DNA of 39,467 nucleotides from Candidatus Gastranaerophilales bacterium (GTDB taxonomy: Bacteria > Cyanobacteriota > Vampirovibrionia > Gastranaerophilales > Gastranaerophilaceae), in assembly GCA_947589115.1 (NCBI GenBank), contig CANPZP010000010.1:1-39467 (forward strand), given 5' to 3'. Within the stretch, counting starts at the first letter, position 1. Each line of letters starts with the position of its first letter. This document shows positions 2,936-24,153 of this stretch, in pieces. The notes beneath the pieces were generated by a model that worked only from the letters and a program-made list of their open reading frames with translations, did not search any database and was not told the DNA's origin. The translations under genes were made by a program, and so were the position numbers.

Positions 2936-2985
2936 CTGTTTACATTTAACCGATTAACTTAAACCACTTTATTGAGTATATGAAA

Positions 2986-3507
2986 TTAATTATATTTTTC
3001 GTTAAATTCTTTTATCAGTTGCAGTTCTTCATTGTTTCCGTTTAAAATTTCAATAATGTTATATAGTTTTTTTACACTTAAATTTTTTTCAAGAGCAAAT
3101 TTTTCAAGTTTTTCTTGTATATCTGAATTCTTGAGTTTTGTTATTAAATATAATTTTTCAATGCCAAGTTCTATATAGTGTTCATTTGTTACTCCTTTTT
3201 TATATTTTTTGTTGCAATAATTATAAGTTTCAATGTATTTTATAGCTTGAGTTCGTTTAATTTTAATTTTTTCGTTTTTTAACCACATGTTAAAAATTTT
3301 AGCGGACATCTCGTTATCAATAAGTTCTAAAAGATTTCTTCCGATTTTTAAAAAATTTCTTTGATTGTCGTTTTTTAAATCTTTGATTTCTTTGATGACT
3401 TTATCCGAAGTACGTTTTTCTCTGCCATAACAATCATCAAATAAATTTTCTTCACTCAAATCAATTTCATATGCACTCAATTTAATATAATTATTGTCGG
3501 CTTTCAT
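2986..3507 (-). CDS. DUF3102-like protein of unknown function
   Basis: This 173-residue, highly charged protein has a central region (about residues 50-95: NFLKIGRNLLELIDNE, then NMWLKNEKIKIKRTQAIKYI) that resembles the DUF3102 pattern. That pattern is a helix pair followed by F-x-x-W-x-x-x-x-x-I-x-x-R-T-A, seen in plasmid and phage proteins related to partition or replication factors. The rest is helical, ending in a likely coiled coil. The gene overlaps the end of the 44-codon gene upstream by 17 nt and lacks a good ribosome binding site, so it is probably translated by coupling. It lies directly upstream of the candidate retron RNA and RT, which makes it a possible partner. No retron effector domain is recognisable. 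Confidence 0.6.
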   Translation of the reverse strand: MKADNNYIKLSAYEIDLSEENLFDDCYGREKRTSDKVIKEIKDLKNDNQRNFLKIGRNLLELIDNEMSAKIFNMWLKNEKIKIKRTQAIKYIETYNYCNKKYKKGVTNEHYIELGIEKLYLITKLKNSDIQEKLEKFALEKNLSVKKLYNIIEILNGNNEELQLIKEFNEKYN

Positions 3508-3625
3508 CTTTTTTTCTTTCTTTTTTCTTAATCCTTTTTTGTTTTTTGCTTATCCAGTTCATTAACCAGATTGCAACTTTTTCTTTTTTGAGGTCTCTTT
3601 TAATATGCAAAATAAATTTTGTCAT
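3491..3625 (-). CDS. Small basic protein, 44 residues
   Basis: A 44-residue reading frame begins one base after the stop codon of the excisionase-like gene and runs 17 nt into the DUF3102-like gene. The start is MTKFILHIKRDLKKEK and the C-terminus is rich in Lys/Arg (KKKERKKDESRQ). The ATG is preceded by GGAAAGGA at a good distance, inside the end of the upstream gene. The tight packing on both sides argues for a translated gene in a three-gene operon. No family is recognised. The lysine-rich tail partly reflects an A-rich sequence, so some doubt remains. Confidence 0.5.
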   Translation of the reverse strand: MTKFILHIKRDLKKEKVAIWLMNWISKKQKRIKKKERKKDESRQ

Positions 3626-3626
3626 T

Positions 3627-3854
3627 TTAATCCTTTCCGTTTCTTTTCTTTAATTCTGCACCATTTAAAAACCATTCTTTAACTTGGCTATATATAAAAG
3701 TCGGTTTTTTACCTAATTTTCGATAAATATTACTTGGCAACTGGTTATAGTGTAGCCAACTGTATATAGTATCTACCTTTACTCGAAGTAATTCTGCTGT
3801 TTCTTCACAGGTCATTAGTTTTAACTCTTTTAATTCTGTTTCGTTGTCTTTCAT
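3627..3854 (-). CDS. Excisionase-like HTH (MerR/AlpA type) protein
   Basis: The protein has about 75 residues from the ATG at 3854; a TTG at 3884 would give 85. The body LMTCEETAELLRVKVDTIYSWLHYNQLP is a winged helix-turn-helix of the excisionase/HTH_17 class, with W and the conserved KxGKKPTFIYSQVKEWF tail. Such proteins are recombination directionality factors or island regulators. I prefer the ATG because TATTAT lies 6 nt upstream of it, as for other leaderless genes here. Neither start has a ribosome binding site. A 14-bp inverted repeat upstream (3901-3934) could be its own operator. It heads the operon with the 44-codon and DUF3102-like genes. Confidence 0.8.
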   Translation of the reverse strand: MKDNETELKELKLMTCEETAELLRVKVDTIYSWLHYNQLPSNIYRKLGKKPTFIYSQVKEWFLNGAELKKRNGKD

Positions 3855-3900
3855 ATGCACATAATAACTTTTTTTGGTTTTCAAGTTTTGAGAAACAAAA

Positions 3901-3934
3901 AAAATTGAAAAAAAATCTAATTTTTTTCAATTTT
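3901..3934. repeat. 14-bp inverted repeat upstream of the excisionase-like gene
   Basis: AAAATTGAAAAAAA (3901-3914) is the exact reverse complement of 3921-3934, with a 6-nt centre. It lies ~50 bp upstream of the excisionase-like start. It is a candidate operator; low complexity lowers its significance. Confidence 0.5.
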
Positions 3935-4086
3935 GATAATTTTTGACAATATGCTTAAAAATACTGAAATATAAGGCTTTTTTGATTTTTTTAGTTGTTT
4001 TGATTTTTAATTACAAAAAAAATTTTGATGTGTGTAAAACTTTTATTCTTTGATTTGTATGATTTTTGTTTTTTAAAGTTTACATG

Positions 4087-5271
4087 TTATTTATTATCAT
4101 TGTTAAAACAGATAGTCGCAAGGGTTTTTAGCTTGTTAATGTTTTTTTCAATATCAACATAAGAAATCTGTGTTTTATGTTTTACTTTAGATTTTTTTAA
4201 TTCATCATCTAATTTCTTTAAAATTTTTTCCAATTTTATTTTTCTTTGAGTTCTTATTTGTGAATTTGATTTTTTATCAGTTTTTATGGTATAAAGAACA
4301 GATTTTAAATCCATATCTGAAATTGATGAAAAATCCCAATGACATTTGCTTTCTTCAATATTTTTTTGAAGTTCTTTGAAAGTCTTAAATAATTTTTTGC
4401 AATTATCGCAAATTTTTGTGCTTTTAGGATTATTAATATTAGGATTGCAACATTTGCAAAATCCAGTTTCGTTGATTTTTATTGCTTTAATTATTCTTGA
4501 ATGAATTTTCTTTAAATTTTGAAATGAATAAGTAGTTAAATATGATTCAATAAAGCATACAAAATCATTTTCGTTTAAATCTTGCTTTGAATCTTCATCA
4601 TAAAACTCTCCTTTTCTTATTAATTTTTGACCTAAACAATAGTTTATGTTTAAGTCTTTATTGACAATAAAAGTTTTTGTATCCGTGTCTATTAAATCAA
4701 AATAAGTGCATTTATATGAATAATCTTTAAATCTTTTTTGTTTTTTTTCGATTTCAATTCTGACTAACGAATCATTATAAAAACAATAATAAAATTTATT
4801 TTCGTCATAAGAATTAATTATAAATTTTATAACTTTTGATATGTCTTTTTCAGTTAATATTTCTATATTAAATTTTTCGTTATCATATTGTTTTTTATTT
4901 TTAGCAATGTTCTTTAATTTTTTTTTGTCAGTCGACTGACAATATAAATAACTCAAATAACAATATGATATTGCGTAAAGATGAAGATATAGCAATTTGA
5001 ATCTACTAATATAATATTCGGGTTTTTGCCAGCCAGGGTCACTTACTTCAAAATCTTCACTATGTCCATTTTTAGGGGGAAAATCAATTTCTACATCTGG
5101 ACCCAAAACGCAATAAATATATCTGAAAAGATAATCCAAAAGCGATATTTTATTTGAATAATCAGAATTACATCCTAAAGCACAATTTTTAAGCAGTACT
5201 TTTATATCTTCATCATCTGCAAAAGTAATTATATCTTTCAAAACCCACGAAATTGAATCAGAAAATATCAT
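4087..5271 (-). CDS. Unknown protein with Cys-rich zinc-ribbon-like motif
   Basis: This 394-residue protein matches no family I recognise. Around residues 270-295 it has a cysteine cluster (FCKCCNP, then ICDNCKKLF), with Cys272/274/275 and Cys288/291 fitting a zinc ribbon. The N-terminal half is rich in aromatic residues (ISYCYLSYLY at ~101-110) without clear membrane helices. The C-terminus is a Lys-rich helical region. The gene is monocistronic on the minus strand with its own promoter (5278-5306) and no ribosome binding site. Codon use is very AT-rich, like the rest of the island. It could be an accessory or defence gene of the island, but there is no direct evidence. A gap of about 200 bp separates it from the excisionase-like gene. 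Confidence 0.7.
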   Translation of the reverse strand: MIFSDSISWVLKDIITFADDEDIKVLLKNCALGCNSDYSNKISLLDYLFRYIYCVLGPDVEIDFPPKNGHSEDFEVSDPGWQKPEYYISRFKLLYLHLYAISYCYLSYLYCQSTDKKKLKNIAKNKKQYDNEKFNIEILTEKDISKVIKFIINSYDENKFYYCFYNDSLVRIEIEKKQKRFKDYSYKCTYFDLIDTDTKTFIVNKDLNINYCLGQKLIRKGEFYDEDSKQDLNENDFVCFIESYLTTYSFQNLKKIHSRIIKAIKINETGFCKCCNPNINNPKSTKICDNCKKLFKTFKELQKNIEESKCHWDFSSISDMDLKSVLYTIKTDKKSNSQIRTQRKIKLEKILKKLDDELKKSKVKHKTQISYVDIEKNINKLKTLATICFNNDNK

Positions 5272-17423: not shown

Positions 17424-18017
17424 ATGAAAAAGTTAATAATTTTTATATTCTTTATATTAATAATTACTTCGTTATCCGCTAAAGCCCAAGAAACAGATAC
17501 GACTTCCGTCTGGGGTGAAAATTCTTCTGTTTTTAATAAAGGTTTCGATAATCAAAAACCTGTTACGGATTCGAAATTAAAAGAAACAATAAAACAGATA
17601 AAAGAAAGAAATTTGAGCAAAAAACAGCGTAAAATACGGGAAGAAGTACAACCATTGTCCCCTATGTCGGATTTTGAGCATTTAAAAAATTTTGCACAAG
17701 ATAGTGATGAAAATAGTCAATTAAATAATACTCATACAGTGATGATTCCCGCTAGGGCTTATAGTATGGACGGGCAAATTATTACTCCGGGATATTATAA
17801 GTTATCTTGCAGAAAAGTTGCAAAAAATGAATATATGCTTGAACTTTCGCAAGGTACAAAAGTTATAATGTCCGTTAAAGCTGAGCAAACGGAACAAGAC
17901 TTGGAGCAGGATTCAATTTCTTTTTGCGATGCCGAAATTATAAGTAACAACAGAATAAGATTAATGTACGGAAGTCTTGATTTAAATCTTGTCGGTTATT
18001 TGTATATAGAAAATTAA
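17424..18017 (+). CDS. Secreted hypothetical protein
   Basis: This protein has 197 residues from the ATG at 17424. An upstream in-frame GTG at 17397 would add residues before the signal peptide and overlap the promoter, so I reject it. The signal peptide is MKKLIIFIFFILIITSLSAK, with cleavage near KAQ. The C-terminal ~90 residues (VMIPARAYSMDGQIITPGYY, then YLYIEN) look like a small beta-rich domain. The Lys-rich middle is helical. The stop overlaps that of the convergent nifS gene by 4 nt. No family is recognised. Confidence 0.65.
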   Translation: MKKLIIFIFFILIITSLSAKAQETDTTSVWGENSSVFNKGFDNQKPVTDSKLKETIKQIKERNLSKKQRKIREEVQPLSPMSDFEHLKNFAQDSDENSQLNNTHTVMIPARAYSMDGQIITPGYYKLSCRKVAKNEYMLELSQGTKVIMSVKAEQTEQDLEQDSISFCDAEIISNNRIRLMYGSLDLNLVGYLYIEN

Positions 18018-19222
18018 GCTAAGCCTTTTCGTTGTCTGAGTTCTTTTAATTCAGCTTGGAACGGAGAAATATTTCTTAATTTATCAATAATCGGAGGTAT
18101 TTTTTCAAGCGCATAGTCTATTTCATCTTCTGTTGTAAATCGGCTTAAACTGAATCTTATACTGCCGTGAAGCGCAGTAAACGGAATACCCATTGCTTTA
18201 AGTACATGGCTCGGGTCTAAGCTGCCGGAAGTACAAGCACTGCCTGAACTTGCACATATTCCAACATCATTCATATTTAATAATATTAATTCGCCTTCTA
18301 CGTATTCAAAGCCAATATTTGTAGTATTCGGCACTCTGTTTTTTGATGAAGAATTAAGTCTTGCATTATAAATTTTAGATAATAAACCTGTTTCTAACTT
18401 ATCTCTTAAATATTTAACTCTTGAATTTTCATCCGGAAGATTGTCTTTTGCCAATTGAGCAGCTTTTGCCATTCCGACAATAAACGGAACATTTTCTGTT
18501 CCTGCTCTTCTTCCGTTTTCCTGATGTCCGCCTATAATCAGAGGTGAAAATAAGACGGAGGATTTTACATACAATGCTCCAATTCCTTTAGGTGCGTGAA
18601 ATTTATGCCCTGAAATCCCCATCATGTCAATTTGTGTATCTTTAACATTGATGTTGATTTTTCCGGCAGCTTGTACCGCATCTACATATATTTTAGTTTT
18701 GGGATTTATGGATTTTACTTTTTCCGCTATTTCCTCAACGGGAAAGATGGTGCCTGTTTCGTTATTTGCATACATTACGGAAACTAACGCTGTTTTATCG
18801 TTAACTGCTTCATATAATTCTTCCGTATTTACTTCTCCTTCTGAATTTACAGAAATATATGTAACGTCATAACCCTCTTTTTCAAGTTGTTTATAAGTAT
18901 TTAAAACACAAGGATGTTCTACTTTTGTTGTTATTAAATGATTTTTTGATTTATCGGCATTTAAGATTCCTCTTATGGCGCTATTTGCACTTTCGCTTCC
19001 TGATGCCGTAAATATTATTTCTTTTTGATTATTTGCACCTAAAAAATCTTTTATTATTTCTCTTGATTCTTTTATTGCATTAGCATTTTTCCCTCCAAAT
19101 TCATAAATGCTTGAGGGATTTCCGTACAATTCCGAGAAATATGGCTGCATAACTTCAAGAACTTTTTCATCTACTTTTGTTGTGGCATTATTATCTAAAT
19201 ATATAAGATTTGAATTTGTCAT
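18014..19222 (-). CDS. nifS: Cysteine desulfurase NifS
   Basis: This 402-residue PLP enzyme of the NifS/IscS class takes sulfur from cysteine for Fe-S clusters. The PLP lysine is Lys207 in GISGHKFHAPKG. The persulfide Cys330 lies in SSGSACTSG. Other markers are YLDNNATTKVD at the start and NETGTIFPVEEI. Class I features (SGSACTSG, extended catalytic loop) support NifS/IscS rather than SufS. It follows nifU with its ATG one base after the NifU stop codon, so it is translationally coupled. Together they form the NIF-type Fe-S assembly system common in anaerobes, here without nitrogenase genes nearby. Confidence 0.96.
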   Translation of the reverse strand: MTNSNLIYLDNNATTKVDEKVLEVMQPYFSELYGNPSSIYEFGGKNANAIKESREIIKDFLGANNQKEIIFTASGSESANSAIRGILNADKSKNHLITTKVEHPCVLNTYKQLEKEGYDVTYISVNSEGEVNTEELYEAVNDKTALVSVMYANNETGTIFPVEEIAEKVKSINPKTKIYVDAVQAAGKININVKDTQIDMMGISGHKFHAPKGIGALYVKSSVLFSPLIIGGHQENGRRAGTENVPFIVGMAKAAQLAKDNLPDENSRVKYLRDKLETGLLSKIYNARLNSSSKNRVPNTTNIGFEYVEGELILLNMNDVGICASSGSACTSGSLDPSHVLKAMGIPFTALHGSIRFSLSRFTTEDEIDYALEKIPPIIDKLRNISPFQAELKELRQRKGLA

Positions 19223-19223
19223 A

Positions 19224-20039
19224 TTACACCCGAATAATTTCTATATTTTCATTAATATGTTGTTTTAAAGTTGCTTCTACAAAGTGAGTAAGCGTAACTT
19301 GAGAACGATTACATTCCTGACATCTGCCTGTTAATCTTACTTTAATTTTATTATTATCAACATCTATAAGTTCAATATCTCCGCCGTCTTTTCTGAGTTC
19401 GGGAGAAATATATTTTTCTATAATATTATTTATTTTAATAATCATTTGAGTATTTGTTAATTTTTCTTCTTTCGGCTGATTATTTATTTTATCAAGTATA
19501 TCTTGAATTTTACCTCGGCATCTGCCGCAGCCTCCGCCGGCTTTTGTGTAATTTATTACATCTTCCAATGTTTTTAAGTTATTATTTTTAATTTCATTTT
19601 TTAGCATAGATTCTGATACGTCATAACAGAAACAAACAGTTTCATCATGTTCATTTGAGGTTGTATTTTCTTCTCCGTAATAATTTTTTATTGCAGCCTC
19701 TAATGCTTCATGTCCCATAACTGAACAGTGCATTTTCTCAGGAGGAAGCCCTCCTAATTCTTCAGCTATTTGTTTATTAGTTATTTTTCTTGCTTCGTCT
19801 ATGTGCTTGCCTATAACCATTTCGGTGAGAATACTGGAGCTTGCGACAGCACTTCCGCATCCGAAAGTCTGGAATTTAGCATCAGTTATTATCCCTTTTT
19901 CATCCACTTTTAAATATAATTTCAGCATATCTCCGCAGGATAATGAACCTGCTTCGCCTATTGCATCTGCATCATCTATTGAACCTACATTTTTAGGATT
20001 CCTATAGTGTTCCATTACTTTTTCAGAATAATTCCACAT
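19224..20039 (-). CDS. nifU: NifU three-domain Fe-S scaffold
   Basis: The protein is 271 residues from the ATG at 20039, which has AAGGGA upstream; a longer reading from 20066 adds nine unlikely residues. It has all three NifU domains. The IscU-like scaffold carries Cys35, Cys61 and Cys105 with Asp37 (GSLSCGDML, FGCGSA, MHCSVMG). A central BFD-like [2Fe-2S] domain carries Cys136, Cys138, Cys171 and Cys174 (VCFCYD, GGGCGRCRG). The C-terminal NFU domain has Cys240-x-x-Cys243 (GRCQECNRS). It receives sulfur from NifS and delivers clusters to anaerobic enzymes. It is the first gene of the nifU-nifS operon. Confidence 0.96.
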   Translation of the reverse strand: MWNYSEKVMEHYRNPKNVGSIDDADAIGEAGSLSCGDMLKLYLKVDEKGIITDAKFQTFGCGSAVASSSILTEMVIGKHIDEARKITNKQIAEELGGLPPEKMHCSVMGHEALEAAIKNYYGEENTTSNEHDETVCFCYDVSESMLKNEIKNNNLKTLEDVINYTKAGGGCGRCRGKIQDILDKINNQPKEEKLTNTQMIIKINNIIEKYISPELRKDGGDIELIDVDNNKIKVRLTGRCQECNRSQVTLTHFVEATLKQHINENIEIIRV

Positions 20040-20194
20040 TATTTTTCCCTTTTTTATCGGACACATTAATTATACTGCAAATAAAAAAATCGATATAAAT
20101 TATTAGATTTTGGTCTTTATTAAAAGTTCCTTTTTGGAGGGCAAAAAAAATCTTTATGGGTTTTACTATATTGACAGCTTAATAAGGAATACGA

Positions 20195-20965
20195 ATGCTT
20201 ATATCGTCATTAAATAACTTTTATCGTGCTTCAACCCCTTTCTGTGCCGTGAAACCTTTTTATGCAATAAATAAAGATGCGGAATTATCATTATTTACAT
20301 CAAGAACACAAGCAGCACAAACTCTCGGAATTAGTGATTCAAGCATCAGACTTTGTTTAAACGGGAAGCAAAATATTTCTCATAATCATATATTTGTTAA
20401 TGCTGAGGATTTATTATCGACAGACGAAGATGGAAATAAGGTTATAGACCCCGTAAAATTAAATTTTGCAATGTTAAAATTTGATACTAATCCTGTATAT
20501 GCCATACAAGAGGACGGTAATTATAAAAGATATCATAGTATAAGAGAAGCTCAGGATGATATTGGATGCTCTCAGGGACAGATATCCAGAAATATTAATA
20601 ATAAAGATAAAGTAACATACGGATATGTTTTTAAGCCCTCCTCCGAAATTGAAATAATAGATGAAAACGGTGAAATCCATGTTGATAAAGATTTGTTGAA
20701 AAAAGCAATGTTAAAGTTTGATAAATCTCCTTTGTATGTTATTAACGGCGATGGTACTTATGAGAGGTATCGTTCAAGAAAAGAGGCTGCCGAGAATATT
20801 TTTACAAGTTTACAAAATATTGCGGTAAAACTTTTTAGACAAACTACCTCTAATGACCAGATTTTTGTTAATGCAGGTGAGATTGAAACAATTGATGATG
20901 ACGGTACAATTCATGCGGATAAAGAAAAAATTAGTGAATATGTCAAAAAAATAAACTCAAAATAA
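20195..20965 (+). CDS. Protein of three tandem NUMOD1/IENR1-like modules
   Basis: This 256-residue protein is made of three ~78-residue modules starting near residues 20, 100 and 178. Each begins P-x-Y-x-I-x-x-x-G-x-Y-x-x-Y (PVYAIQEDGNYKRY), runs through S-x-x-E-A-a-x-x-(L)G-I-S-x-x-x-I (SRTQAAQTLGISDSSI), and ends with a xFxxAxEIExIDExG linker. The first half matches the NUMOD1/intron-encoded nuclease repeat, a small HTH-like DNA-binding module normally fused to homing endonucleases. No nuclease domain (GIY-YIG, HNH, LAGLIDADG) is present. AAGGA precedes the ATG. Its N-terminus, MLISSLNNFYRA, resembles that of the paralogue at 21318. Sequence-specific DNA binding is inferred. Confidence 0.75.
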   Translation: MLISSLNNFYRASTPFCAVKPFYAINKDAELSLFTSRTQAAQTLGISDSSIRLCLNGKQNISHNHIFVNAEDLLSTDEDGNKVIDPVKLNFAMLKFDTNPVYAIQEDGNYKRYHSIREAQDDIGCSQGQISRNINNKDKVTYGYVFKPSSEIEIIDENGEIHVDKDLLKKAMLKFDKSPLYVINGDGTYERYRSRKEAAENIFTSLQNIAVKLFRQTTSNDQIFVNAGEIETIDDDGTIHADKEKISEYVKKINSK

Positions 20966-21020
20966 AGCAAATTTTTTTATCTTATGTTTTGTATTAGTGT
21001 AATTAATTAGGAGTTTAAAA

Positions 21021-21305
21021 ATGAATATTTCTAAAATTTCATACGGATATAATAATTCAATTAAAAATAATTTGGCTTTTAACGGACTTCATTTGTTTAA
21101 AAGAAAAAAGAGCGAAAAAAACAATAAAGATATTAAATCAATGGAGCAAGAAGCGGATAACTTAAGGAAGGAATTACATCCGTTGAGTAATTACTATTCC
21201 GTTGTAATCCCATCACATGAGATAGAACGTAAGAATCCGGACGGCAGTATATCCGTTGATTACGTTAAAATAAATAATATTATAAAAGATAAGATAGAAG
21301 ATTAA
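21021..21305 (+). CDS. Small protein with a solitary linker half of the NUMOD1-like module
   Basis: This 94-residue protein begins MNISKISYGYNNSIKNNLAF. Its last ~36 residues (SVVIPSHEIERKNPDGSISV, then DYVKINNII) resemble only the second half of the modules in the flanking genes: F-x-x-A-x-E-I-E-x-x-x-x-x-G-x-I followed by a helix. The HTH half is missing; in its place is a Lys-rich helix. TTAGGAG precedes the ATG. It stands between two modular paralogues, 13 bp from the downstream gene. It could be a decayed or derived paralogue, or a partner. The function is unknown. Confidence 0.65.
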   Translation: MNISKISYGYNNSIKNNLAFNGLHLFKRKKSEKNNKDIKSMEQEADNLRKELHPLSNYYSVVIPSHEIERKNPDGSISVDYVKINNIIKDKIED

Positions 21306-21317
21306 AAAGGGGTCCGG

Positions 21318-22805
21318 ATGTTAATTACTCCTGTCAGAATGAATTATAATCAATCCTTTGGTAATAAACCATTATATGCAATAAACAAAAACGGGGAAAT
21401 GAAAAGGTATAAATCCCGAACGGAAGCATCAGAAGATTTGGGTATAACGACATCTTCAATAGGAAATTGCGCAAACGGCGGAACAAAAACTACATGCGGT
21501 TATATATTCATGAATTATGAAGATGTTAAGTCGAAAGTAATGGACAGGACGGGTATTAAGGCTGACGAAAAAAAACTTGGCATATTACTTCGGGATAAGT
21601 TTGATGATAATCCTGTATATGCCGTAAATTGTAACGGTGAGTACTTAAGATTTTATTCCCCAAAAGATGCCGGTGACAGATTGGGCATTTCAACATTTAC
21701 GATATGTAATTCTGTAAAAGGTATTCCAAATAATTCCAAGGAATGGGCTTTTGTTTCTGCCGATAAAATGGAAAACGTTTCGGAAAACGGTGAAATTACT
21801 ATTAATGATGATGTTTTAAATGAGGCAATGAAATCCGTTAATAGAAAATCTTTTTATGTAATAGATAAAGACGGCAATTATAAAAAATATAATAATAAAA
21901 GTGAAGCGGCAGAGGATTTGGGAATAGATATAATGAAAATATATCAATGCCTGACTAACAGACTAATGAAAGCAGATGATTATACTTTTGTTCCGGCTGA
22001 AGAAATTGAAGTAAAAGGTAAAGTAGGAGAAGTTGATAAAAAAGAATTAAAAAAACTGCTTATTAATAATTTTGAAAATAGTCCTCTGTATGTAATTGAT
22101 GAAAAAGGCAGATATACAAGATTCACTAACAGACAAGATGCGGCAAAAGCAATAGGGTCAACGCCGTCAACGGTAGCATCCTGCATAAACGATACAAGAA
22201 AGTATACGGTAAAAAATTATGCTCTTGCACCCGCAGAAAGTATTGAATATATAGATGAGAACGGAAATATTATTCCTCAAAAAGAATTAATAAACAAAGT
22301 CGTTTCCGAATCTTTTTCGAGAAAACCCATATATGTTATTGACAGGAATGGTAATTGTACTAAATATTATACAAGAAATAAAGCTGCCCAAGCATTGGGG
22401 ATTGATGTTCATACAATAACTCACTGCCTAAGGGGTGACCAAATCAAAACAAGAGGGGGATATACTTTTGCTCTTCCTTCCGAAATTGAAGTCATAGATG
22501 ATAACGGTAATATTAAAATTAACAGAAAAAAAGTAAGAGAACTTAAAAATAAGATTAATAATAATGCTATTTATGCATTATCCTCTAACAGAAAGTACAA
22601 AAAGTATTTGTCAATAAAAGAAGCATCGGATAGTTTACACCTGAGTGAAGATTCTATTCAAAATTGTATTACGGGAAAAACAAAACGAGTAAGAAATTAT
22701 ACTTTCTTTAAAGCTAAAGATATTGATATTATTGATGAATCCAACAGATGTACTCAAGATTTTGAAGCTCTAAAGAAAATATATAATGACAGATTTAACA
22801 AATAG
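21318..22805 (+). CDS. Protein of six tandem NUMOD1/IENR1-like modules
   Basis: This 495-residue protein is built entirely of six modules of 78-81 residues starting at residues 18, 99, 178, 256, 337 and 417. Each has P-(L/V/I)-Y-(A/V)-I-x-x-x-G-x-Y-x-x-(Y/F), an HTH-like E-A-A-x-x-L-G-I-x-x-x-x-I-x-x-C-(L/I) and a closing Y-x-F-x-x-A-x-E-I-E-x-I-D-E-x-G. The modules are clearly diverged from one another at putative DNA-contact positions after LGI. No catalytic domain is fused. The short N-terminus MLITPVRMNYNQSFGNK resembles that of neighbouring hypotheticals. It likely forms an operon with the 94-residue gene. The length and regularity are unusual for this domain class. Confidence 0.78.
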   Translation: MLITPVRMNYNQSFGNKPLYAINKNGEMKRYKSRTEASEDLGITTSSIGNCANGGTKTTCGYIFMNYEDVKSKVMDRTGIKADEKKLGILLRDKFDDNPVYAVNCNGEYLRFYSPKDAGDRLGISTFTICNSVKGIPNNSKEWAFVSADKMENVSENGEITINDDVLNEAMKSVNRKSFYVIDKDGNYKKYNNKSEAAEDLGIDIMKIYQCLTNRLMKADDYTFVPAEEIEVKGKVGEVDKKELKKLLINNFENSPLYVIDEKGRYTRFTNRQDAAKAIGSTPSTVASCINDTRKYTVKNYALAPAESIEYIDENGNIIPQKELINKVVSESFSRKPIYVIDRNGNCTKYYTRNKAAQALGIDVHTITHCLRGDQIKTRGGYTFALPSEIEVIDDNGNIKINRKKVRELKNKINNNAIYALSSNRKYKKYLSIKEASDSLHLSEDSIQNCITGKTKRVRNYTFFKAKDIDIIDESNRCTQDFEALKKIYNDRFNK

Positions 22806-22830
22806 GTTTATTCGGATATTTAAGCTCTGA

Positions 22831-24153
22831 TTAAAGAAGTGTATCGTTTAAAACATTATTAATTGAACTTAATGCTCTTTTTGCAAGGAGTTCATTTCTT
22901 AATTTTTTGTTTTTCTTAATTTTTTTATCCGCATTTAACTCGGATAATATACCCCAATTTGAGTTTATAGGTTGGAATGAACTGTGTCCTTCAAAGGTAA
23001 TATAGTTAGTTAAAGCTCCGAGCATTGTTTCTTGGGGTAAAATTAATAATGGTTTATTCTTTATGTAACGGGCTAAGTTAATGCCGGCTAAGAGTCCGGT
23101 AGCTATTGATTCCGTGTAGCCTTCAGTTCCGGTTATTTGCCCCGCAAAAAATACATTACTGTTTATTCTTGACTGCATTGAAGGATTTAAACATTTAGGA
23201 CTGTTTATAAAGGTGTTTCTGTGCATAACTCCGTATCTTACAATATTTGCATTCTCCAAGCCGGGGATGGCATGGATTAATTCTTTTTGATAAGACCATT
23301 TTAAATTGGTTTGAAATCCCACAATATTATAAAGGCTTGCAGCTTTATTATCCTGTCTTAGTTGTACTACGGCATAATTTTCGATTCCCGTTCTTGAATC
23401 TTGAAGTCCTACAGGTTTTAACGGGCCGAATCTTAATGTATCCGCTCCTCTTGACGCCAATACTTCAATCGGCAGACAAGATTCAAAAAACTTTGCTCCT
23501 TTTTCAAATGATTTTAATTCTATTCTTGGTGAATTTACTAAAATTTTATAAAAGTTTTCATACTCTTCTTTATTCATCGGACAATTTATATAATCCGCAT
23601 CTCCTTTATTATATCTGTTCATATAAAAGGCTTTATCAAAATTAACGGAATCTTTTTCTATAATCGGAGCTATTGCATCAAAAAAATATAAATACTCCTC
23701 TCCTAAAAAATCTTTAATATTCTTAGATAACTCTTCGGAGGTTAACGGGCCTGATGCAATAATACAAGGAATATTCGGATTTATTTGTGTTATTTCCTCC
23801 CGTATTATATTAATATAGGGATTTTCTTCTATTTTTTGAGTGATTTTTTTTGAAAATAATTCTCTGTCAACTGCAAGCGCACCGCCTGCTGGAACTTTTG
23901 ATTCCGTTATTTCGGGCATTAATTCGGAACCTAATATTTCTATTTCGTGTTTTAATAATCCCGAAGCATTTGTTGTTTCATATGAGCCTAAACTGTTAGA
24001 ACATACCAACTCCGCAAATTTATCCGTTTTATGCGCACCTGTTTCTTTATTCGGTCGCATTTCATATAAATCTGTTTTAATTCCGTATTTCGCAAGCTGT
24101 AAAGCGGCTTCTGAGCCGGCTAAACCTCCGCCTATTACTATTGCTTCCGCCAT
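22831..24153 (-). CDS. trmFO: TrmFO, folate-dependent tRNA(U54) methyltransferase
   Basis: This 440-residue flavoprotein makes ribothymidine at position 54 of tRNAs using methylene-tetrahydrofolate and FAD. The N-terminal dinucleotide-binding motif is VIGGGLAGSEAA. The signature RPNKETGAHKTDKFAELVC contains Cys51, followed by SNS. The second conserved Cys226 (FFESCLPIEVLASRG) aligns with the catalytic Cys of the Bacillus enzyme. GQITGTEGYTESIATGLLAG is also conserved. AAAGGT precedes the ATG. It diverges from the TadZ-like gene with only ~70 bp between starts. Confidence 0.97.
   Translation of the reverse strand: MAEAIVIGGGLAGSEAALQLAKYGIKTDLYEMRPNKETGAHKTDKFAELVCSNSLGSYETTNASGLLKHEIEILGSELMPEITESKVPAGGALAVDRELFSKKITQKIEENPYINIIREEITQINPNIPCIIASGPLTSEELSKNIKDFLGEEYLYFFDAIAPIIEKDSVNFDKAFYMNRYNKGDADYINCPMNKEEYENFYKILVNSPRIELKSFEKGAKFFESCLPIEVLASRGADTLRFGPLKPVGLQDSRTGIENYAVVQLRQDNKAASLYNIVGFQTNLKWSYQKELIHAIPGLENANIVRYGVMHRNTFINSPKCLNPSMQSRINSNVFFAGQITGTEGYTESIATGLLAGINLARYIKNKPLLILPQETMLGALTNYITFEGHSSFQPINSNWGILSELNADKKIKKNKKLRNELLAKRALSSINNVLNDTLL

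Follow-up and report, generated by a model that had tools for sequence, protein, structure and literature searches.

Tandem NUMOD-like modules without a nuclease form candidate DNA-binding arrays in Gastranaerophilaceae

The window, the whole 39,467-nucleotide stretch of Candidatus Gastranaerophilales DNA that was analysed (contig CANPZP010000010.1), contains a cluster of three genes that all run in the same direction on the plus strand: array gene A (20195-20965, 256 aa), a 94-aa gene (21021-21305) and array gene B (21318-22805, 495 aa). Protein A starts with a leader of about 20 aa (20195-20254), loosely resembling a leader common to such arrays, and continues with three modules, which a module hidden Markov model (HMM) places at 20255-20491 (A1, up to the start of A2), 20492-20728 (A2) and 20729-20962 (A3). 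Protein B has a leader of 17 aa (21318-21368), which fits the looser leader expression and not the strict one, and six modules placed by the same HMM at 21369-21611 (B1), 21612-21848 (B2), 21849-22082 (B3), 22083-22325 (B4), 22326-22565 (B5) and 22566-22802 (B6). Module spacing is 79 and 79 aa in A and 81, 79, 78, 81 and 80 aa in B, and the modules make up 85% and 89% of the two proteins, respectively. At the DNA level, direct repeats spaced 234-243 nt apart run within A and within B, the largest family having six copies of 60 nt, five of which are 62-72% identical to the reference copy. In the 94-aa gene, a leader precedes only the C-terminal half of one module (residues 60-87, E 1.7e-6 among 3,636 ORFs searched); its product has no Pfam, reliable NCBIfam or PHROG match, and the gene resembles an array gene that has contracted.

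On one side of the cluster lies a nifS/nifU-like pair (18014-20066) and on the other a trmFO-like gene (22831-24153), all on the minus strand and named from their sequences. These flanking genes are chromosomal, and signalling genes are also among the neighbours in the window. Relatives also carry nifU/nifS-like and trmFO-like proteins of this kind. In the genus, flanks of approximately 1.5 kb around 29 trmFO and 29 nifU loci showed neither trmFO-nifU adjacency nor any array, and a different gene follows trmFO in 21 of its 29 loci. A shared ancestral array locus is thus unsupported and, given that trmFO and nifU are not neighbours within these flanks, the window cluster sits at a rearranged junction (20066-22831). 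In a genome of another genus (G189), the same nifS/nifU-like pair also has an array next to it, of six modules (L067 6994-10689), but on its opposite side. A promoter and terminator scan returned fewer promoter-like sites than were found in shuffled sequences.

Profile searches support the assignment of the modules to the NUMOD/I-HmuI DNA-binding family. PF22083 (I-HmuI NUMOD-like) matches three stretches of protein A (E 1.8e-20, 72.7 bits), at 20261-20392 in A1, at 20498-20635 in A2 and in A3, and six stretches of protein B (E 3.6e-46, 154.9 bits), including 21375-21509 in B1, 22332-22469 in B5 and 22572-22706 in B6, against a cut-off of 27 bits. NUMOD1 (PF07453) is also above its cut-off of 22.8 bits in A (28.1) and B (53.7). 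An initial annotation, made from the sequence alone, had described two genes of three and six regular NUMOD1-type modules that form the whole protein. The open reading frames, the spacing of 78-81 aa, the coverage and the profile matches all agree with this description, except that PF22083 is a better family for the modules than NUMOD1 alone and that the cluster includes the 94-aa gene, which the annotation did not mention. The same annotation saw no catalytic domain in the cluster, and Pfam likewise lists no nuclease family for A, B or the 94-aa protein. Endonuclease models from NCBIfam (TIGR01453), PHROG and PADLOC do match the arrays, but over module stretches only, and many of these matches are to the DNA-binding tails of the profiles.

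The predicted fold points in the same direction. A profile search of the PDB with 48 overlapping three-module segments gave I-HmuI (1u3e, E 3.9e-7) as the only convincing match; 8b6e was absent at E <= 1. An AlphaFold2 model of three modules, based on the 48-segment alignment, has a pLDDT of 91.6 and a pTM of 0.71, and shows each module as a hairpin, two short helices and a strand, followed by a strand/helix linker, that is, a helix-turn-helix (HTH) unit of the order beta-beta-helix-helix-beta. The units superpose on the DNA-binding tail of I-HmuI, as expected from the proposal of an HTH-like fold, and the third module of the model (B3) gives the best match to 1u3e (VIA-align Z 7.9, 1.5 A over 54 residues, 32% identity). 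Lower in the VIA-align ranking are the DNA-binding Paulinella protein sCTP-23166 (8b6e, Z 6.1), the I-TevI DNA-binding domain solved with DNA (1i3j, Z 4.8) and, as a weak similarity, AcrVA3 (Z 4.5), and the program warns that Z under 8 can mean a common arrangement. Foldseek alone gives 1u3e a modest E of 4.6e-3. With modest Foldseek E-values and all Z scores below 8, homology can be claimed only with the help of the sequence profile. Against viral models, Foldseek returned 130 matches at E <= 0.001, the best 50 of which are mostly homing endonucleases; we did not count non-listing in the fold search as absence. A short pithovirus 'NUMOD1 domain protein' is among the matches listed, which raises the possibility that nuclease-free NUMOD proteins exist in giant viruses. 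For the six-module protein, the structure prediction asked of it by the initial annotation was confident at the scale of three modules and poor as a whole (pTM 0.28), so no defined shape of the entire array is predicted.

Aligned over 73 columns, each module has an HTH part (columns 1-49) with a mean charge of +2.75 and an acidic part (columns 50-73) with a mean charge of -2.51 and the consensus A-x-E-[IV]-E-x-x-D-E-N-G...V-D-x-x-K-I. Protein A as a whole is mildly acidic, with a pI of 5.6 and a net charge of -5, and a few relatives come out close to neutral. The most variable columns are 28, 39, 29 and 41, followed by 15 and 33, and lie mostly in the turn, the recognition helix and the following loop. 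The positions after the LGI motif, which had been noted to differ between modules, are indeed among the most variable of the module. At the exposed columns of the turn, recognition helix and loop, paralogous modules differ in 0.88-0.89 of comparisons, whereas orthologous modules differ in 0.287, compared with 0.361 at the other variable columns (31 ortholog module pairs). Pooled over the 31 pairs, this contrast has a Mann-Whitney p of 0.012, in a test designed once the recognition columns had already been picked by eye, and one of the three ortholog sets contributes most of the effect (G128-G123, 6 pairs, p 0.028; G109-G179, 19 pairs, p 0.85; G128-SIG29, 6 pairs, p 0.42). In control comparisons, p was 0.08 within the N-terminal half of the module, and 11 of 72 circular shifts of the columns did as well or better. 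The contrast fits a conserved contact surface and is a hint of one, not proof of a recognition code. Of the modular DNA-binding array put forward in the initial annotation, the family, the HTH fold and the lack of a nuclease hold, whereas a recognition code does not follow from so weak a contrast, and reading of DNA module by module is at most weakly suggested.

In the order, 18 of 286 genomes carry PF22083 (E <= 0.001; 16 above the cut-off), a count that includes proteins other than arrays, namely one with a single module (L061) and a GIY-YIG/NUMOD3 protein (L070). All 18 genomes belong to one family and to 6 of 50 genera, and none of 14 control genomes has a match. The L061 protein (2961-4856) consists of six DUF4379 treble-clef zinc domains followed by one NUMOD1 module at the C-terminus. 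Within the genus, PF22083 was found in 9 of 41 genomes (E <= 1e-5), and in a sample of the phylum in 10 of 386, only one of them outside the family and with a single short match. Eight named loci from a module scan come from Candidatus Gastranaerophilales (four), Melainabacteria (one), a Cyanobacteria bacterium (one) and records labelled 'bacterium' (two); a scan of genome contigs with a single protein gave no matches. Metagenome-assembled genomes (MAGs) of Gastranaerophilales (Melainabacteria) account for most of the named relatives. In the stretches read, at least one module is present in 45 ORFs, of which 41 have three or more; some of the 41 are fragments cut by contig ends or frameshifts. 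These 41 ORFs have three (12 ORFs), four (6), five (2), six (9), seven (6), eight (3) or nine (3) modules, so that the survey of copy number proposed in the initial annotation gives arrays of three to nine modules among the relatives read, with open frames of up to 770 aa. Array genes are often clustered in groups of two to six, with six in a row in G200, and their position differs between genomes, being common only to the near relatives G109, G179 and G257. A plasmid origin of the arrays was rejected, since none of 72,556 plasmid records matched, and we found no paper on nuclease-free NUMOD arrays in the open-licence PMC literature.

The viral relatives that were read all keep a GIY-YIG or HNH-like part. 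On an IMG/VR contig (L093 5155-6345), a GIY-YIG nuclease is followed by four modules, which shows that the one or two copies beside a nuclease assumed to be usual for such modules are not an absolute limit; its linkers are, judged by eye, shorter and lack the acidic DENG segment. This protein may represent an intermediate stage on the way from ordinary homing endonucleases to the arrays. A second viral protein (L171) has an HNH-like N-terminus, judged by eye, and two modules. Among 50,697 phage records, six matched, all annotated as HNH endonucleases, and three scans of viral contigs, using a few exact peptide patterns that miss distant relatives, gave four, one and zero loci. An origin of the arrays as phage cargo is unsupported by these counts.

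Six array ortholog pairs have dN/dS values (NG86) of 0.14-0.37: 0.35, 0.14 and 0.37 between G109 and G179, 0.21 and 0.37 between G257 and G179, and 0.19, with saturated dS, between G128 and SIG29. Two of the six pairs involve genes that recur in a comparison with a third genome. Neighbouring genes have values of 0.07 (Rex-like), 0.03 (ADH), 0.17 (a 121-aa leader protein) and 0.34 (a 446-aa protein). The arrays are functional and under purifying selection, yet fast-evolving. The 446-aa protein (L054 14020-15360, with orthologs on L055 and L057) adjoins a three-gene array cluster, has no Pfam match and evolves as fast as the arrays (dN 0.270, dS 0.793). A small leader-bearing protein is kept beside the array cluster in three genomes (L054 7611-7976 and L056 1263-1628, 121 aa in both; L057 14666-15079), and its L054 copy has no Pfam match. 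Otherwise, the Pfam-scanned neighbours of the arrays in G109, G128, G200 and other genomes are metabolic or unassigned genes.

The leader ahead of the first module has the pattern M-x-[IV]-x-x-[IVF]...[ST]-F-x-[GA], which was drawn up post hoc, after the sequences had been viewed, and in its strict form is present in 28 of the 41 multi-module ORFs, with more recognizable by eye. Similar leaders are found on GAPDH-like, HAD hydrolase, DHH, nucleotidyltransferase and calpain-like proteins of the lineage, and on an AAA ATPase beside the G128 arrays. Leader bearers include the 94-aa gene of the window (21021-21305) and genes at L074 6982-7728 and 12587-13675, L077 7168-7455 and 7471-7779, L089 1-626, L052 5255-6496, L063 17440-18420 and L066 14702-15904. 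In a sample from the genome of the window itself (G000), the looser form of the pattern occurs in 11 of 410 genes compared with 4 of 1,441 internal-methionine controls. A leader common to unrelated proteins is possibly a sorting signal of a new type. To our knowledge, no export function has been assigned to the M-x-[IV]...F-x-[GA] leader, and we found no paper on such an N-terminal motif of Melainabacteria in the open-licence PMC literature.

We propose, with a probability of roughly two in three, that A and B are domesticated and amplified DNA-binding arrays that act as regulators, roadblocks or architectural proteins and not as cutters. NUMODs are modular DNA-binding regions loosely tethered to the catalytic domains of phage homing endonucleases, as described in PMC3943268, and because they bind DNA we take the arrays to be multivalent, non-cutting DNA-binding proteins, a reading that homology and the predicted fold support well; how long the bound site is and what the arrays do there we infer. 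The analysis turned up no target site and no regulated gene. In this scenario, a phage-type homing endonuclease would have supplied an HTH-bearing NUMOD module that parted from its nuclease, acquired the acidic strand-helix linker (xExE..DENG...VD..KI) and multiplied in tandem within Gastranaerophilaceae. A single module would lay its basic face, made up of the hairpin, the second HTH helix and a Lys-rich loop, against a few base pairs, so that three to nine modules in a row would occupy a long stretch of DNA, where the array may serve as a regulator, a roadblock or a local architectural protein. Our guess, at somewhat better than even, is that the binding is sequence-selective, a slight lean that we take because the exposed columns are module-specific and kept.

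A protein that coats DNA or associates with the nucleoid independently of sequence, gaining affinity by avidity and without a code, a mode reported for the sCTP family of Paulinella, is possible but unlikely. The fold match to sCTP-23166 would suit it, given that the sCTP family, with more than 200 members, binds double-stranded DNA according to PMC12176269, and so would the weak ortholog/paralog contrast and an array length that differs between genomes, a variation easier to reconcile with avidity than with a long site of fixed size. However, a patchy distribution (18 of 286 genomes) is not that of an essential nucleoid protein, the charge is only mildly basic, and orthologs conserve the exposed helix columns no less than the other variable columns. 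At the other extreme, a programmable-type scaffold, in which each module of about 80 aa reads its own DNA word, arrays spell addresses of three to nine words and the leader directs them to a specific location inside or outside the cell, is improbable. We consider it distinctly improbable that the arrays are exported or surface proteins that bind extracellular or foreign-cell DNA, or in which the HTH scaffold binds protein. The frequency of the strict leader among the arrays, the similar leaders on unrelated proteins and the excess of the looser pattern over the internal-methionine controls would favour a sorting signal, but the pattern is post hoc, no Sec signal is apparent by eye and several other bearers look like cytoplasmic enzymes.

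It is very improbable that the arrays are decaying remnants of homing endonucleases, selfish genes minus their nuclease. The homology of the modules to such enzymes, the truncated 94-aa gene and the broken or split frames in G123 and G153 would fit decay, but the arrays share a leader, have long frames and are longer than the viral relatives read (four modules in L093, two in L171), and L093 lacks their acidic linker segment; because the ortholog pairs are under purifying selection, we take the arrays not to be decaying, and rejected pseudogenes or remnants on the dN/dS values. A role in anti-phage defence or counter-defence, by masking DNA sites, is scarcely credible: patchy spread and the weak similarity to AcrVA3 are compatible with it, but the PADLOC matches are homing endonuclease models, apart from one mads_1 match of B in which no stretch passes alone, and the neighbours are metabolic or unassigned, in the window nifS/nifU-like, trmFO-like and signalling genes. 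Neither the neighbours nor the PADLOC matches thus support a defence system.

In published descriptions, NUMODs are accessory modules with which selfish nucleases bind DNA. The arrays resemble the NUMODs of homing endonucleases (PF22083/PF07453) in sequence family and predicted HTH fold, but differ in that three to nine modules form the whole protein, each with an acidic linker, and the nuclease is lacking. Viral proteins that combine a nuclease with several modules (L093, L171 and Lactobacillus phage HNH proteins) have tandem modules of the same family and, unlike the arrays, keep the nuclease part. TALE, BurrH/BAT and similar repeat proteins follow the same principle of lining up many similar units along DNA; their repeats are helical hairpins of about 33-35 aa that read one base each, whereas the arrays consist of HTH units of 78-81 aa for which no code is known. 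The sCTPs of Paulinella chromatophora are comparable as an expanded, nuclease-free family with a small HTH fold (a fold match only) that binds double-stranded DNA (PMC12176269), and differ as single short domains of a eukaryote that are imported into the chromatophore.

Taken together, the array genes suggest a home-grown family of multi-part DNA-binding proteins in gut bacteria related to cyanobacteria. One NUMOD has given rise to stand-alone arrays of up to nine units that are kept by selection, a natural experiment on the concatenation of a small HTH. If the modules carry independent specificity, they would constitute a new modular DNA-binding scaffold; if they do not, the arrays would represent a novel type of DNA-coating protein from a group of gut bacteria that is common but poorly known.
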